Source: Erythrobacter sp. | GTDB lineage: Bacteria; Pseudomonadota; Alphaproteobacteria; Sphingomonadales; Sphingomonadaceae | Assembly (NCBI GenBank): GCA_002695185.1 | Contig: NZOF01000048.1 | Coordinates: forward strand, 1-10,129 | DNA length: 10,129 nt | Direction of reading: 5' to 3' | Shown here: positions 376-7,134 of the stretch, in pieces | Position numbering within the stretch: position 1 is the stretch's first letter | How the letters are laid out: the number at the start of each line of letters is the position of its first letter | Translations under genes and position numbers: made by a program | The notes under the pieces: generated by a model | What the model saw: only the letters and a program-made list of their open reading frames with translations | The model's database searches: none | Told to the model about the DNA's origin: nothing

Positions 376-1635
376 ATGGCGAGCGGAAACGTCACGAAAG
401 GCAACGTCGATGCCCTCCAGGCGGGCGAGCGAGATGCATTTCTGTGGGATAAGAGACTTCCAGGCTTCGGGGTGAAGATCACGCCGAAAGGAAGCAGGGT
501 TTATCTTTATCAGTACCGCATGGGCGGACGCGGTTCTAAAGTGCGCCGCTACACTATTGGTAAGCATGGGCCGCTCACACCCGAAGCGGCACGTAAAGAG
601 GCGCAGCGCCTGTCTTTGCTTGTGGCACAAGGCGAAGATCCGCAGAGCAACAAGGTCCAGCGCCAGCGAGTTAGTGTCGAACTGGCGTTTCCCGCCTACC
701 TCGATCACTTCGTAGAGCATTGCTTAAAGGTCGATTGGAAAGCTTCGGCTGGCGAAGTGGAAGCGATGCTACGCACCTATGCTCTGCCCGTCCTCAAATC
801 GAAGGCTTTGCCTGACATCACCCGCGCCGATGTAAGCGCGGTGCTGCGGCCTCTACGCTCGAAACCTGCTTCTCATAGCAAGCTCTTCGCGATCCTCCGT
901 CGCCTGTTCCGTTGGGCCATAAGTGAGGGGGACTTAACCACTGGTTCTCCCATGGCAGACATGGAAGCGCCACCCCCTCCCCCGTCCCGAAAGCGCGTTC
1001 TAAAGGATTGGGAACTGCGGCTGGTGTGGGATGCTGCGGAAGGGCTTGGCTATCCGTTCGGTCCTATGGTGCGGCTTCTGATCTTGACGGGCCAGCGCCG
1101 CAACGAAGTTTCCGGAATGCCATGGAAGGAACTAGACCATAGCGAGCGGCTATGGTCGTTACCCGCGGAACGAGCCAAGAATGGCGAGGCGACGAACGTT
1201 CCCTTGTCGCCAATAGCGATGGATGAACTTGGCAGAATTGCGCAGTCTAAGGGAAAGACGGATTGGCCGCGGACGGGCTACGTCTTCACTACGACGGGCA
1301 AAAGCCCCGTATCGGGCTACTCAAGAGCCAAGTCGCGCCTCGACAAGTTGGTAGCGGAGGCAAACAAAGGGCAGGCTCTCGACGATTGGACCCTACACGA
1401 TCTGCGCCGTACTTTAGCCACGGGCATGCAGCGCCTCGGTGTGCGCTTTGAGGTCACAGAGGCAATCTTGAACCATAAGTCCGGTTCGCGCTCGGGCGTG
1501 GCCGGTGTTTATCAGCTTCACGAATGGGCCGAAGAAAAGCGGTCTGCGCTCGATGCTTGGGCGCAACACGTTGTGGCCCTCGGCAGTGCTGCTGACGAGA
1601 CAAACGTTGTTCACCTTGCTGAAGTGCGAGGCTGA
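376..1635 (+). CDS. int: Tyrosine recombinase / phage-type integrase
   Basis: This is a 419-aa site-specific recombinase expected to integrate and excise the element at tRNA-Thr. The N-terminal about 90 residues resemble the DUF4102-type arm-binding domain (AFLWDKRLPGFGVKITPKG). A SAM-like core-binding domain spans roughly residues 95-195, and the catalytic domain follows. The catalytic residues visible are Arg241 in LTGQRRNEV, His341 and Arg344 in HDLRR, His367 in ILNHKSG, and the nucleophile Tyr379 in VYQLHEW. The set is complete, so the enzyme looks active. The frame is open back to a GTG at 229, but that would place the start inside the tRNA fragment. The ATG at 376 has GGAG 11 nt upstream and begins just before the conserved N-terminal domain, so it is preferred; ATG 322 is a weaker alternative. 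The length is typical for prophage and island integrases of this type. The gene lies beside the att fragment, pointing into the element. Confidence 0.93.
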   Translation: MASGNVTKGNVDALQAGERDAFLWDKRLPGFGVKITPKGSRVYLYQYRMGGRGSKVRRYTIGKHGPLTPEAARKEAQRLSLLVAQGEDPQSNKVQRQRVSVELAFPAYLDHFVEHCLKVDWKASAGEVEAMLRTYALPVLKSKALPDITRADVSAVLRPLRSKPASHSKLFAILRRLFRWAISEGDLTTGSPMADMEAPPPPPSRKRVLKDWELRLVWDAAEGLGYPFGPMVRLLILTGQRRNEVSGMPWKELDHSERLWSLPAERAKNGEATNVPLSPIAMDELGRIAQSKGKTDWPRTGYVFTTTGKSPVSGYSRAKSRLDKLVAEANKGQALDDWTLHDLRRTLATGMQRLGVRFEVTEAILNHKSGSRSGVAGVYQLHEWAEEKRSALDAWAQHVVALGSAADETNVVHLAEVRG

Positions 1636-2458: not shown

Positions 2459-2656
2459 ATGACCCGACTACATACCGAAGAAGAAGAGGCGGGGCGCTTG
2501 GGCCTCGCCCCCAAGACCCTCGCAAATCAGCGCTGCCGTGGCGACGGCCCGCCGTTCCTGAAGGTAGGTCGCCTCGTCCGCTATGACCCTGACCTGACCG
2601 ACGCATGGCTAGCTGAGCGGGTGCGTTCGTCCACCTCTGATGTGGGGGGCGCGTGA
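2459..2656 (+). CDS. AlpA/excisionase-like small helix-turn-helix protein
   Basis: This 65-aa protein has the MerR/AlpA-like HTH_17 layout. An acidic N-terminus (LHTEEEEAGRLGLAPKTLAN) supplies the recognition helices. It is followed by a GDGPPFLKVGRLVRYDPDLTDAWL wing, of which the F-x-K-x-G-R-x-V-R-Y core is the diagnostic part. Such proteins bind DNA and act as excisionases (recombination directionality factors) or as activators of integrase or replication genes in islands. The start is the ATG at 2459, with GGAGG at 2448-2452 about 6 bases upstream; the longer frame back to 2378 has no ribosome site and would read through the tandem-repeat region. It is the first gene of the primase operon, and the phased repeats upstream are plausible autoregulatory or Xis sites. 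Confidence in the fold is high; the exact role is inferred. Confidence 0.82.
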   Translation: MTRLHTEEEEAGRLGLAPKTLANQRCRGDGPPFLKVGRLVRYDPDLTDAWLAERVRSSTSDVGGA

Positions 2657-3216: not shown

Positions 3217-3395
3217 CTCCACAAAGCTTTTGCGGAAGCTCGGCTGACGGGTGCGTTCCAGTTCTCATCGACGGGGTGGTAAGTTGGCTTGCCCCGGACA
3301 GCGCGAAGCTCGCCTGCTCAACCTTGGGTGCGCTGCCCGTGCCGCCATTCGAGAGCATTGACGATCAACTAGCCGCGATGGGGGGTGTGGCATGA
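3213..3395 (+). CDS. Hypothetical small protein, 60 aa
   Basis: This very small protein is joined to both neighbours by ATGA overlaps, with its end overlapping the primase start. It contains two N-terminal cysteines (SFCGSSADGC), a hydrophobic patch (PVLIDGVVSWLAP) and a short C-terminal helix (SIDDQLAAMGG). No family is recognised. It may be a real small accessory protein or may serve mainly to deliver ribosomes to the primase start. The unbroken coupling makes a real gene more likely than not. Confidence 0.6.
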   Translation: MTPQSFCGSSADGCVPVLIDGVVSWLAPDSAKLACSTLGALPVPPFESIDDQLAAMGGVA

Positions 3396-4306
3396 CTGCG
3401 TTGCTCGACCTCGAAAGCATTCGAGATGCAAACCCCCTCCCCTCTGTGGTGGGTGGTGTGGTCAAACTGCATAGGGCTGGCAGGGAATGGAAAGCCTGCT
3501 GTCCGTTCCATGCCGACCGCTCACCTAGTTTTACGATCTACGCGGGTGGCAAGCGGTTCTGCTGCTTCGGGTGTGGTGCGGAAGGCGATGTGTTCGACTT
3601 CGTTTCCAAGCTCCATGGTGTAGGCCTCCGCGATGCGGCGATCCTGCTGGGCAAGGGTGATGTGGTGACTACGGAAGTGGCACCGCTCCCCCCTGCCGAC
3701 GATGCGGGTGATAGGGTAGATGAGGCCCGCACGATCTGGCGCGCGGCTTCACCTGCGCAGGGGACGTTGGCGGAGACCTACCTCCGCTGGCGCGGTCTCA
3801 GCATCACCATACCCCCGACCATTCGCTTCGCCTCGCTGCGATATGGGAAGCGGGGGCGGGAATACCCTACGCTTGTTGCTGCTGTCTCTGGAGATGGTGG
3901 GCGCCTGACAGGAATACAGCGCACCTATTTGGCCGACAATGGCAAAGGCAAGGCGAACGTTCCCAAGGCTAAGCTATCGCTAGGCAAGGTCCGGTGCGGC
4001 GCAATCCGCCTCGCGCCTGTCGCCCGCAAGATGGTGGTGACGGAAGGGCTAGAAGATGGCTTGTCGCTACAAGAGGCGCTCGGCGCTCCCGTGTGGGTGG
4101 CCTGCGGTGCCTCCATGCTGCCTAGCCTGCGGTTTCCTGACTTTGTGCGGGACATAGCTATTGGCGGTGACAACGACGAAGCGGGACGGGCCGCTGCCGA
4201 CAAGGCGGCGAAGGCCTTTGCGAAGCGCGGCCATGGTGTGCGGGTATTCTACCCGACTGCGCCGCACAAAGATTTCAACGATGAATTGACGGGGGTTCGC
4301 GCATGA
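3392..4306 (+). CDS. DNA primase: CHC2 zinc finger plus TOPRIM domain
   Basis: This 304-aa primase would lay RNA primers for replication of the excised element. The N-terminal CHC2 zinc finger has ligands Cys37, His40, Cys58 and Cys61 in CPFH and CFGCG, with the usual PSFTIY strand between. Residues 110-140 form a linker (YLRWRGLSI) seen in phage and plasmid primases of the DUF7146/TOPRIM type. The TOPRIM domain covers about residues 205-295, with Glu218 in VVTEG and the Asp260-x-Asp262 pair in GGDNDEAG. The product is about half the length of DnaG and lacks a helicase-interaction domain, as expected for island primases paired with a separate ATPase. The start overlaps the upstream stop (ATGA) and its end overlaps the ATPase start. 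Chromosomal dnaG is excluded by the short length and context. Confidence 0.9.
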   Translation: MTALLDLESIRDANPLPSVVGGVVKLHRAGREWKACCPFHADRSPSFTIYAGGKRFCCFGCGAEGDVFDFVSKLHGVGLRDAAILLGKGDVVTTEVAPLPPADDAGDRVDEARTIWRAASPAQGTLAETYLRWRGLSITIPPTIRFASLRYGKRGREYPTLVAAVSGDGGRLTGIQRTYLADNGKGKANVPKAKLSLGKVRCGAIRLAPVARKMVVTEGLEDGLSLQEALGAPVWVACGASMLPSLRFPDFVRDIAIGGDNDEAGRAAADKAAKAFAKRGHGVRVFYPTAPHKDFNDELTGVRA

Positions 4307-5817
4307 CTGTTGCGACGATGAAAAGCGCCTTTGAGCGCGCGGAAGTGGTTTCGATCTGGCCCGCTCTGGATCGCACTCTAATCGACAACGGGCGGCGTCC
4401 CGCCGTGGACATGCCCCGCCACCTGTTCGGCCCCGCCTGGGGCGTTATCGAGCAAGTTGCGGACGCAACCGCCACTAAGCCCGATTATGCGGCGATGGGC
4501 TATCTCGGCGCTGCTGCAAGCCTCATTGGCGGCAAGCGGCGCATTAGTCCCGATAGGGGCGATTGGACAGAACCTTGCATCCTGTGGGTGGCTGCGCTCG
4601 GAGATCCGTCGTCGCGCAAGTCTGCCCCCCTCGACCATATGACTAAGCCTCTGTGGGCGATGCAAGAGGCGGCCAAGGAGTGCTTTGAGGAACGCAAGCG
4701 GGAACACGCTGCAGAAGTCGAACGCGCCAAGGCTGAACGCATGAAGTGGCAGGACAGCGTGAAGGAAGCTGCGGGCACTCCAGGGGGCACGCCTCCGATG
4801 CCTGAAATTGCGGTGGAGCCTGACGCGCCGCGCGAAGTCATCAAGATCATCAGCGATGCAACGCCGGAAGCCGTAGCCGATGTGCTGGCGGGGAATCCGC
4901 AAGGCGTGCTTTGCTACAATGACGAACTGGCCGGATGGCTTGAAAGCTTCGACCGCTACACCTCTGGCGGGCGTCCCTTCTGGCTGTCAGCCTTCGGCGG
5001 TCGCCCCCATGCGATTAGCCGCAAGGGTGGGGGCTCGCTGCATATCCCCTTTAATGGAGTGTCGGTCCTCGGCTCGATCCAGCCGGATATCGTGACAAAG
5101 CACCTAGAGGCGGCGAATGACGGGCTAGTCCCTCGCATACTCTGGGCGTGGCCCGACAAACTGCCCCCTAAGCCGCAAACAGTGCGCGTTGATCGTTCGT
5201 TGCTAGAGGCTGCGTATTCGCGCCTCGACCTGCTGGCATGGGAAGAGGATAGCGAGGGTAAGCGGTGCGCCAAAGTCCTCCCCCTCGATGATGACGCGGC
5301 GGCGGTCTTTGCCGATTGGAACGTGACCAACGCGGAGGCCGACGCGGAAGGGTCCAATCTCTACGCGTCCTTCGCTGGCAAAATGAGCGGTGCGGTCCTT
5401 CGTCTCGCACTGGTCGCGGAACTGACGGAATGGGCCTTCAATGGCGGGGGTGAACCCGCAACCGTCTCGATGCGATCCCTGTCGGCTGCAATCGAATGGG
5501 TGGAGGATTATGCCAAGCCGATGGCACAACGGGTATTCGGTGACGCTGCCGTGCCTCTCGCGGATCGCAATGCGGCCCTACTCGCCCGCTACATTCGCAA
5601 GAATGAGTTTCACACCATCAATGTGCGGGAGCTTCGCCGCCATCCCCATAAGGGCCACCTGAAGCCGCTACAGGCTAAGGGCGCAATGGATGAGGCCCTA
5701 GACATTATGCAAGACGCTGGCTGGATACTCCCTGCCTTCTCGCGGGACGGCGAAGGCGTCGGGCAACGACGCAAAGACTACAACGTAAACCCTGCCGTAT
5801 TCGAGGCCGCACAATGA
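4303..5817 (+). CDS. DUF3987-type P-loop ATPase (putative replicative helicase)
   Basis: This 504-aa protein resembles DUF3987 proteins, which usually follow a primase in phages and islands and are thought to act as replicative helicase-like ATPases. A Walker A-like loop lies at 100-107 (GDPSSRKS), with Arg where the second Gly normally stands. A Walker B-like element is YNDELAGWL at about 205-213, with Asp207 and Glu208. Downstream conserved blocks include SVLGSIQPD (about 254-262) and DGLVPRILWAWP (about 273-284), which probably hold sensor and arginine-finger residues. A charged coiled-coil insertion spans about 119-157. The C-terminal 100 residues look like a winged-helix region (RNAALLARYIRKNEF onward). 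It is translationally coupled to the primase before it and to the repeat-bearing gene after it. ATPase activity is likely from the motifs; helicase function is inferred from family context. Confidence 0.85.
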   Translation: MTVATMKSAFERAEVVSIWPALDRTLIDNGRRPAVDMPRHLFGPAWGVIEQVADATATKPDYAAMGYLGAAASLIGGKRRISPDRGDWTEPCILWVAALGDPSSRKSAPLDHMTKPLWAMQEAAKECFEERKREHAAEVERAKAERMKWQDSVKEAAGTPGGTPPMPEIAVEPDAPREVIKIISDATPEAVADVLAGNPQGVLCYNDELAGWLESFDRYTSGGRPFWLSAFGGRPHAISRKGGGSLHIPFNGVSVLGSIQPDIVTKHLEAANDGLVPRILWAWPDKLPPKPQTVRVDRSLLEAAYSRLDLLAWEEDSEGKRCAKVLPLDDDAAAVFADWNVTNAEADAEGSNLYASFAGKMSGAVLRLALVAELTEWAFNGGGEPATVSMRSLSAAIEWVEDYAKPMAQRVFGDAAVPLADRNAALLARYIRKNEFHTINVRELRRHPHKGHLKPLQAKGAMDEALDIMQDAGWILPAFSRDGEGVGQRRKDYNVNPAVFEAAQ

Positions 5818-6287
5818 GTTGGCGGGAGCAAGTGGAGGAAGCACTAAGAGATAGGGACAAAAGGGACACTAGGGACAAAAGCCCCCCTCCGTGCCCTATC
5901 TCCGCCCCTAATGTCCCTAACGTCCCTAGTGTCCCAACTAATCCGTCCAAGCTTCTGCGCGAATGGGAGGCGGGCCTAACCTCTCTCGATCCTGAAAAGC
6001 CTCCCGATGGATTTGAGGGGCGGGAATACTGGCAGCTGTGGCTAGACGCCTGCTGGCTATTCGAGACGCATGGGCGCTATGCCGCGCTGAATGGATGGGA
6101 CACGCAGGCAGTGTTCGGTGTGTTCGTTGGGTATCCTGCTGCTGGCGGCTTGGCTCAACAACTCCGAGGGTCGCGCCAACTCGTCTTCGACGGCCCTCGC
6201 GCGGTATATCGACGGCTCGGAGTGCCGGCATCTATCAACGTTGGTATTGCCCGGGGGCTTCCCCCTCTCTGGGACATCTGCAGCTAG
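5814..6287 (+). CDS. Conserved-looking hypothetical protein with DNA repeats in its 5' end
   Basis: This 157-aa protein is coupled to the ATPase gene by ATGA and is the last gene of the operon. Residues 14-22 read RDK-RDT-RDK, and residues 30-42 give an N/S/T-V-P triplet pattern. This low-complexity linker is encoded by the 9-bp repeats described separately. From about residue 45 a compact domain follows (LLREWEAGL, YWQLWLDACWLFETHG, ALNGWDTQAVFGVF, LAQQLRGSRQLVFD). Its Trp and aromatic pattern is, as I recall, shared by proteins found after DUF3987 genes in alphaproteobacteria. That domain may be a replication accessory or initiator factor, but no catalytic motif is evident. The variable linker may tolerate the origin-like DNA, which would explain its odd composition. 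Confidence 0.75.
   Translation: MSWREQVEEALRDRDKRDTRDKSPPPCPISAPNVPNVPSVPTNPSKLLREWEAGLTSLDPEKPPDGFEGREYWQLWLDACWLFETHGRYAALNGWDTQAVFGVFVGYPAAGGLAQQLRGSRQLVFDGPRAVYRRLGVPASINVGIARGLPPLWDICS
5853..5938. repeat. Two-armed 9-bp repeat array, candidate iteron origin
   Basis: AGGGACA occurs at 5853, 5862 and 5871, exactly 9 bp apart. After a 34-bp gap the reverse-strand word (TGTCCCT or a close variant) occurs at 5912, 5921 and 5930, again 9 bp apart, with a degenerate in-phase copy at 5903. The arms include a perfect 14-bp inverted match, 5863-5876 against 5922-5935. The same DNA word encodes RDK in one arm and VPN-like triplets in the other, so selection on protein sequence alone does not explain it. 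Location immediately after primase and ATPase genes is where satellite and phage origins often lie. Origin function is inferred. Confidence 0.68.
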
Positions 6288-6342
6288 GTGAGCCGGTCGG
6301 CTAAAAAAACAGCCAGAAAACACCTTTCGTGAGCGTCCGTCC

Positions 6343-7134
6343 TCAATTCCCAAACCGGTAGGAATCGTTTCCGCAGCGGTGAAAGGTCTTGTCGGCGGCT
6401 GACTGATATACAGCTCCGTAGCAAATATTGGCTGCCGCTAGTTGCGGGGCCAAGACAGCATCCCTTTGGCGGCACGCGTCCTCAGCCTGTCCCCCTCCCT
6501 GCTGGCAGTACCGGTCTAGCTCCTGCCAGCGGGCAATGATCTCTTGCTCCGCGCGATTAAATGGCGTGGGCTGAGCGGGGGCCGGTGGGGGCTTAGGCGT
6601 GGGTGTAGGCGTTGAACTAGGCGGGAGAGGCACAGTAGGCGCAGTGTTCTGCCATCGCGGCTGAGGTTCGTAAGAGGCGACCTCCAGCTTGCCCGCAAGA
6701 GCGTCGGCAAACGCCGCGCCAATGATCGACCGTTCATCGTAACCCAACTGATCGCCGTTATCATACGTGATGACCCGGCACGGATTGCGACAACTCGACC
6801 GCCCTAGAACCGACCCGCTTGGACTGACCCGAGCAAGGATATGTCGTCCTCCTTCCTCGCCTAAATACGCGTAAGTAACGACATCTCCCGCACGCTTGCC
6901 GGATTTTTGATCCTCTTCTGACACCGCAGCGATGTATGAGTAAAACACACCATCCCGCTCGTCGTAATAGTGCGAGGGCGTAGGTGGGACATAAGGGGGC
7001 ACCGCGTAACTAGCTTCTGTAGCAATGGTTGCTGGATTTGCTGGCTCTGTTTGGGTGTACGCATACCCATTTTCGCGATCATCTCCACAACCCGCGAGGG
7101 CAAGCAGCAAGATCGACGCGTTCACGTATCGCAT
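6343..7134 (-). CDS. Putative lipoprotein, 263 aa
   Basis: This is a secreted, lipid-anchored protein of unknown function. The start is the ATG at 7134, with GGGAGG about 5 bases upstream; an upstream in-frame ATG at 7149 would place the ribosome site inside the gene. Residues 1-16 form a lipoprotein signal with lipobox LAGC, so Cys16 would be acylated. Residues 17-45 are a low-complexity tether. A globular domain follows, running about 46-150 (YYDERDGVFYSYIAAV to SIIGAAFADALAG) and including a paired-cysteine SSCRNPCRVI motif. Next is a Pro/Thr-rich linker (about 165-195) and a C-terminal cysteine-bearing helical domain (ELDRYCQQ, DACRQRD, NICYG, FHRCGN) that may be disulfide-linked. A weak promoter-like pair, TTTTAC and TATTAC 16 bp apart, lies upstream around 7153-7179. 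It converges on the primase operon and is probably cargo acting in the envelope. Confidence 0.82.
   Translation of the reverse strand: MRYVNASILLLALAGCGDDRENGYAYTQTEPANPATIATEASYAVPPYVPPTPSHYYDERDGVFYSYIAAVSEEDQKSGKRAGDVVTYAYLGEEGGRHILARVSPSGSVLGRSSCRNPCRVITYDNGDQLGYDERSIIGAAFADALAGKLEVASYEPQPRWQNTAPTVPLPPSSTPTPTPKPPPAPAQPTPFNRAEQEIIARWQELDRYCQQGGGQAEDACRQRDAVLAPQLAAANICYGAVYQSAADKTFHRCGNDSYRFGN

Follow-up and report, generated by a model that had tools for sequence, protein, structure and literature searches.

In the stretch of Erythrobacter sp. DNA analysed here (10,129 nt, hereafter the window), a two-armed array of 9-bp repeats lies directly behind the gene of a DUF3987 helicase, within the codons of the gene that follows (ORF157), and a single Arg/Gln column in the C-terminus of this helicase (Arg446 in the window) co-varies with the fourth base of the repeated AGGNAC word. 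From these sequence comparisons it seems that the array is a set of replication-origin iterons which would be read by the winged helix of the MCM-like DUF3987 initiator helicase, a reading to which we give a probability of roughly 0.8. The features concerned are listed in Table 1.

Table 1. Positions of the repeat array and of the surrounding genes in the window
Feature	Position	Strand	Remark
Integrase gene	376-1635		
HTH gene, weakly AlpA/excisionase-like	2459-2656		under Pfam cut-off; PHROG E = 1.9e-5
Primase	3392..4306	+	CHC2 zinc ribbon, DUF7146, Toprim
DUF3987 helicase (PF13148)	4303..5817	+	MCM-like by fold comparison; proposed array reader
Winged-helix-like C-terminal part of the DUF3987 helicase (residues 419-497)	5557..5793	+	model secondary structure
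Arg446 codon of the DUF3987 helicase	5638..5640	+	sole residue tracking the word's fourth base
ORF157 (157-aa gene)	5814..6287	+	
Arm 1, three contiguous 9-bp units TAGGGACAA / AAGGGACAC / TAGGGACAA	5852..5878	+	
Gap between innermost words	5877..5912		36 bp, 61% GC
Degenerate fourth arm-2 unit, plus-strand letters CCGCCCCTA	5902..5910	-	repeat family D2
Arm 2, three 9-bp units facing arm 1	5911..5937	-	

The primase gene, the DUF3987 gene and ORF157 follow each other with successive 4-base overlaps, and the DUF3987 protein is a member of its family by a score of 215.6 bits against PF13148 (gathering cut-off 27). Beside the integrase gene, the minus strand at 205-290 resembles what we take to be the 3' half of a tRNA gene, perhaps tRNA-Thr, as is expected of an attachment site; no complete tRNA was found by ARAGORN, nor a second copy of a 23-base piece within the window.

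In the first arm AGGGACA begins at 5853, 5862 and 5871 (plus strand), i.e. in exact 9-bp steps, and in the second arm GTCCC begins at 5913, 5922 and 5931, again in exact 9-bp steps, with AGGGAC, AGGGAC and TGGGAC as the minus-strand words. This direct reading of both arms bears out the two-armed 9-bp array that an earlier note on this DNA had described, and the array is more than chance: a two-armed 6-mer test over the whole window (periods 5-30) fires at 9 and at its harmonic 18 only. Ten arrays, from the window and 9 relatives, are built of a contiguous 9-bp tile, TAGG[G/C]ACRN, in which a single base is almost free. AGGGAC itself is mildly over-represented (9 copies in the window, with as many in 7 of 200 shuffles), and the improbable feature is the arrangement of the words, not their number. 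The helicase stop codon and the first GGGAC behind it begin 39 bp apart.

The array is translated as part of ORF157, and it could be thought that the RDx / VPx peptide repeat is under protein-level selection, the DNA repeat being a by-product. The RxxRxx...VPxVP pattern is in fact kept by most of the first twelve ORF157 relatives, which made a reading of the DNA at the level of codons necessary. A profile of ORF157 relatives gave 17 places in 15 genomes among 397 genomes of one family (one of the places being the previously found locus of Erythrobacter sp. HI0063), and words were read from the codons at the ORF157 loci, leaving out one duplicate and one near-copy. The word is GGGAC in the window and in loci L001, L004, L006, L007, L011, L012 and L013, GGCAC in L003 and L005, GGAAC in L008, TGCGACA (with the order of the arms reversed) in L009, GAACACC in L010 and of the GACAAAAC type in L014 and L016; L015 has a degenerate AGGGTC-like array, and in L018 the array is absent on codon reading. 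Between loci the word switches in both arms together, and arm 1 of L013/L030 holds GGGACA in a different frame, giving GTIGTKGTI in place of RDx.

When the same peptide was recoded synonymously for the window with local codon usage, the joint counts of direct and inverted 6-mers were matched in 0 of 4000 trials, and the same joint count was reached in at most 52 of 4000 trials in 14 of 15 loci. Single counts are unremarkable in some loci (for the inverted count 693/4000 in L030, 636 in L032 and 484 in L029). Two-armed DNA arrays encode other peptides in L009/L025 and L010, and arrays stand between the listed genes of the plasmid loci L092 and L093. In the structure model of ORF157, the array-encoded residues 14-39 have a pLDDT below 50 except for one residue and are predicted to be disordered, and residues ~44-157 form a conserved, well-folded domain (for which no convincing PDB match was found), so the array sits where ORF157 is least constrained. 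Given the frame change, the word changes, the synonymous null and the arrays outside genes, selection on the peptide repeat is rejected, its probability being practically negligible. It is the DNA word rather than the peptide that is under selection, in line with the earlier note; none of the 15 loci tested keeps the peptide pattern without the DNA repeat, the outcome that the note had named as a refutation, with L033 (355/4000 for the joint count) having an array that is indistinguishable from the synonymous null.

The array goes with the DUF3987 helicase. Further loci were obtained by searches with a DUF3987 alignment, and plasmids were searched with the window protein; the set of 56 DUF3987 loci leaves out duplicates (L002-L018, L035, L052-L061, L067, L068), the array-first viral loci L077-L082, and L026, L027 and L034, which have no match to the DUF3987 profile. 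In a strict test, requiring a 6-mer repeated at exact spacing p on one strand together with its reverse complement likewise repeated at p between -150 and +700 of the helicase stop, 20 of the 56 loci pass at p = 9. Elsewhere in the range of periods 4-30, period 18 is found in three loci, all of them period-9 loci, and periods 7, 10, 17 and 21 in one each, the rest being empty. The same test at p = 9 gave nothing in upstream DNA (0/51) or within the gene (0/56), i.e. 0/107 controls in total, and nothing in 2240 dinucleotide shuffles; one upstream control region matched at period 12. With 5-mers (periods 5-15), period 9 was found in 17 loci and period 7 in a single one. The pass rate was 9/15 for loci discovered via ORF157 or the window and 11/41 for those discovered via DUF3987 alone, and among the 36 loci that fail, several are imperfectly two-armed by eye and others show nothing.

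Several DUF3987 loci with similar arrays have no ORF157-like gene in the inspected stretch directly behind the helicase. An Acinetobacter plasmid carries CTGACA as a 2+2 array behind its DUF3987 gene and a Streptomyces plasmid carries repeats in the same position, in both cases between the listed genes (of an incomplete PLSDB table); L085 has a 3+3 array of the GCCAATAG type, and L083 a 2+2 array of GACAATAG. No array was found at E. coli yfjI, and the window module used as a DNA query matched no plasmid. In L062 and L063 an ORF157-like gene (by eye) stands behind the DUF3987 gene and no array was seen there, the array being either located elsewhere or lost.

Many of the words from distant loci have a GACA-like core in common (GGGACA, TGACAA, CTGACA, GCGACA, GACAAA), a hint that they may descend from a single site whose flank varies. 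Three alphaproteobacterial loci (L071, L088, L090) carry a repeat containing TTGCGCGCG beside TTGTCG/TTGCTG words behind the DUF3987 gene, which is possibly a different origin layout. In L076 (genome G813) the DUF3987 frame passes, by eye, from the winged-helix stretch into an ORF157-like C-terminus, as if one deletion had taken the wing and the array together.

To find the reader of the array, helicases were paired with words. In 12 loci the helicase has a winged-helix stretch of the form [EDT]-[LM]-[KR]-x-x-PHK and the word was read from the DNA. The other 14 pairs, from lists of 120 of 412 helicases and of 102 ORF157 relatives, consist of a helicase and an ORF157 joined solely by an identical length of the longest contig, matched by eye, and their word was read from the ORF157 peptide (R-D, R-N, R-H), not from DNA; as some lengths miss each other by a single base (2470/2471, 3447/3448), roughly one of these exact matches may be a coincidence. 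Initially there were 19 such pairs, of which two coincide with L022/L023 (and agree with them) and three were dropped for having no readable array (P0129/P0161, P0085/P0210, P0025/P0221). Over the 514 columns of the last 500 aligned residues, exactly one column separates the word classes of the 26 pairs, namely that of R446 in the window, with R at G-words in 18/18 and Q at A- or C-words in 8/8 (14 of the 26 pairs being contig-joined); the next-best column has a normalised information of 0.30. The 12 DNA-read loci taken alone leave five columns that separate the labels, and the 14 joined pairs taken alone leave the R446 column only, while shuffled labels gave any perfect column in 2 of 2000 cases. 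As is generally known, Arg suits G, and Gln suits A.

P0015, which among these helicases is most closely related to that of the window (83% identity over 420 columns), differs from it in both word and residue. In a tree built without the last 80 helicase residues the word label changes 6 times, and residue and word agree in 4/4 well-supported independent pairs, for which the sign test alone gives p = 0.125 because there are only four to six independent switches. A second code residue (T for GGCAC) was considered and rejected: P0087 and P0101 combine T with R, and P0069 combines E with Q.

The co-variation strongly suggests that the array is read by an element-encoded initiator, and that this is the DUF3987 ATPase. 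The earlier note had named two possible binders, the ATPase and the repeat-bearing protein itself; its main line and the first of the two hold up, and ORF157 as the reader finds no support and is rejected as the leading candidate. Its best column outside the arms reaches 0.196 of 1 (151 columns scored), with columns inside arm 1 reaching 0.55, the array-encoded segment is the part predicted to be disordered, and similar arrays occur behind DUF3987 genes without such a gene in the stretch inspected. That the primase should read the array, as strand-specific priming sites with one arm per strand, is very improbable. Such a role would fit the primase-helicase operon, in which facing arms would serve both strands, and has a precedent in ssiA/ssiB of RSF1010 (described in an excerpt of PMC4234260), but 3 of 12 array-bearing loci (L020, L024, L030) yielded no relative of the window primase, and it is a column of the helicase winged helix that tracks the word (the columns scanned being those of the helicase and ORF157).

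The structure model of the helicase has a mean pLDDT of 76 (moderate confidence) and a winged-helix-like end, in which Arg446 lies just after, or at the end of, the second helix, not in the classical third. Its best fold matches are MCM helicases (Foldseek E = 2.7e-4, TM-score 0.33), this being the sole match at E <= 0.001, and papillomavirus E1 ranks further down; no solved structure matched the helicase by sequence.

In the mechanism proposed here, DUF3987 monomers would dock via their C-terminal winged helices on the 9-bp tiles TAGGGACRN, and the facing arms, with three units to each, would position two helicase assemblies in opposite directions; these would open the DNA, after which the element's primase would follow. 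The array occupies the first stretch behind the helicase gene, which in this lineage consists of linker codons of the next gene, where a period of 9 bp costs no reading frame. Binding by the helicase, loading of hexamers, melting and the priming step are presumed steps of this scheme, and the origin activity of the array is suggested by its position, its architecture and the precedent of the SaPI and PICI origins.

Alternatively, the array might be bound by the same winged helix in a regulatory role (autorepression, copy-number control or handcuffing) and not as an origin. The co-variation points to the likely reader and not to the outcome of binding, and plasmid iterons often serve both roles. 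We consider regulation alone unlikely, since the array lies behind the helicase gene and not ahead of the operon, no promoter-like site was found in 5700-6500, and a 3' location with two sets of repeats fits the SaPI/PICI origins.

The C-terminal domain of SaPI Rep reads iterons just 3' of the rep gene (according to an excerpt of PMC7581432), and the origins of PICI elements directly follow the initiator gene on its 3' side, their two sets of iterons flanking an AT-rich region (excerpt of PMC6092414). In the window, too, putative iterons lie directly 3' of an initiator-helicase gene and form two sets, which here face each other; recognition by the C-terminal domain is predicted, one winged-helix residue co-varying with the word in 26/26 pairs. 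Between the two sets of the window, however, there is no clear AT-rich core, the gap having 61% GC versus 62% for the helicase gene; across the window and 9 close loci the gap has a GC fraction of 0.42-0.61, and it is below that of the helicase gene in 16 of the 17 loci measured, which is a mild trend. The window helicase furthermore belongs to DUF3987, whereas a kinship with the DUF927-containing Cch is reported for SaPIbov1 Rep, and the fixed 9-bp tiling of both arms, the placement within the coding sequence of the next gene and the one-residue word code in the DUF3987 set are further differences. With no clear AT-rich core and another helicase family, the window is therefore not filed as a PICI origin.

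A different use of the two arms would be as a hairpin, either as an RNA attenuator or terminator or as a DNA stem-loop origin of the pRN1 type, in which case the pairing would be used and not the word. The RNA fold is stable (-32.9 kcal/mol, z = -4.0), and the archaeal plasmid pRN1 needs a stem-loop just 3' of its replication gene, the product of which has a C-terminal winged helix as well (excerpt of PMC4234260). In contrast to pRN1, pairing beyond the words is not conserved in the array loci: the almost free base is paired between the arms in 3 of 16 cases, fewer than the 5.4 expected from shuffled pairing (10 loci). A hairpin has no need for the same word to recur within an arm in 9-bp steps, the region 5700-6500 yielded no terminator-like site, and the gene around the array is open, all of which makes the hairpin quite improbable. 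The iteron reading also has some likeness to oriV of RSF1010 (IncQ), where iterons are combined with an element-encoded helicase and primase. The iterons of RSF1010 have a length of 20 bp. They are read there by a separate protein, RepC (excerpt of PMC4234260), whereas here the helicase itself appears to do so.

Iterons 3' of an initiator helicase are thus already known. DUF3987 proteins (YfjI) have been predicted to be replicative helicases of mobile genetic elements (excerpt of PMC5862659), and DUF3987 together with DUF5906 defines the primase gene that marks PICMI satellites (excerpt of PMC10803314); in the literature searched, including these excerpts, no DUF3987 origin or iterons were found described. 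The reading proposed here would give an origin and its reader to a large helicase family that Pfam lists as of 'unknown function', with at least 412 relatives of the window protein at E <= 1e-40. More broadly, and with clearly less assurance than for the window, we lean towards DUF3987 proteins being one more family of self-loading MCM-like initiator helicases with a simple winged-helix code, in which base 4 of AGGNAC would be G with Arg446 and A or C with Gln, with repeated switches of origin specificity in which one residue and the iterons of both arms change as a pair, and with the origin placed in the codons of a disordered linker. Such a residue-by-base rule is testable and would offer a sequence-based route to the origins of satellites, plasmids and prophages. 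An origin nested in coding DNA could still evolve, the arms changing together and the host gene staying open, and each of the four to six independent paired switches would amount to a natural experiment on the rise of replication specificity, hence of incompatibility between elements.

For other helicase families the strict 9-bp design is not claimed. DUF927 loci were found at 6 places in 5 of 179 genomes, and among the five that were tested (the near-copy L100 being left out) the strict period-9 signal occurs only in the ORF157-linked L096; the three VapE loci (3 of 172 genomes) gave no such signal. In L026 (genome G089) the ORF157 relative stands behind a DUF927 helicase and not behind DUF3987. 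L026 and L027, which are near-identical copies on one contig of G089, carry a GAACACC/GGTGTTC array that is unusually large and divided into several blocks.

Among viral sequences, the ORF157 profile found no relative and the DUF3987 profile found one, and the window helicase as a query matched 6 of 50,697 phage records. The literal ACTGACAAA triple was found in 0 viral contigs, and a search for GGGACA triples gave 6 (L077-L082), of which L079 and L082 share flanking DNA and L081 is unrelated. The large ORF of L077, the only one tested, is a VapE with PriCT-2, and L077 fails the strict two-armed test; with GGGACA repeats behind a VapE-type gene, the same word may serve another helicase family. 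In L077, L078 and L080 the GGGACA 9-bp repeats begin 72-75 bp after a large ORF, and these ORFs have a common C-terminus.
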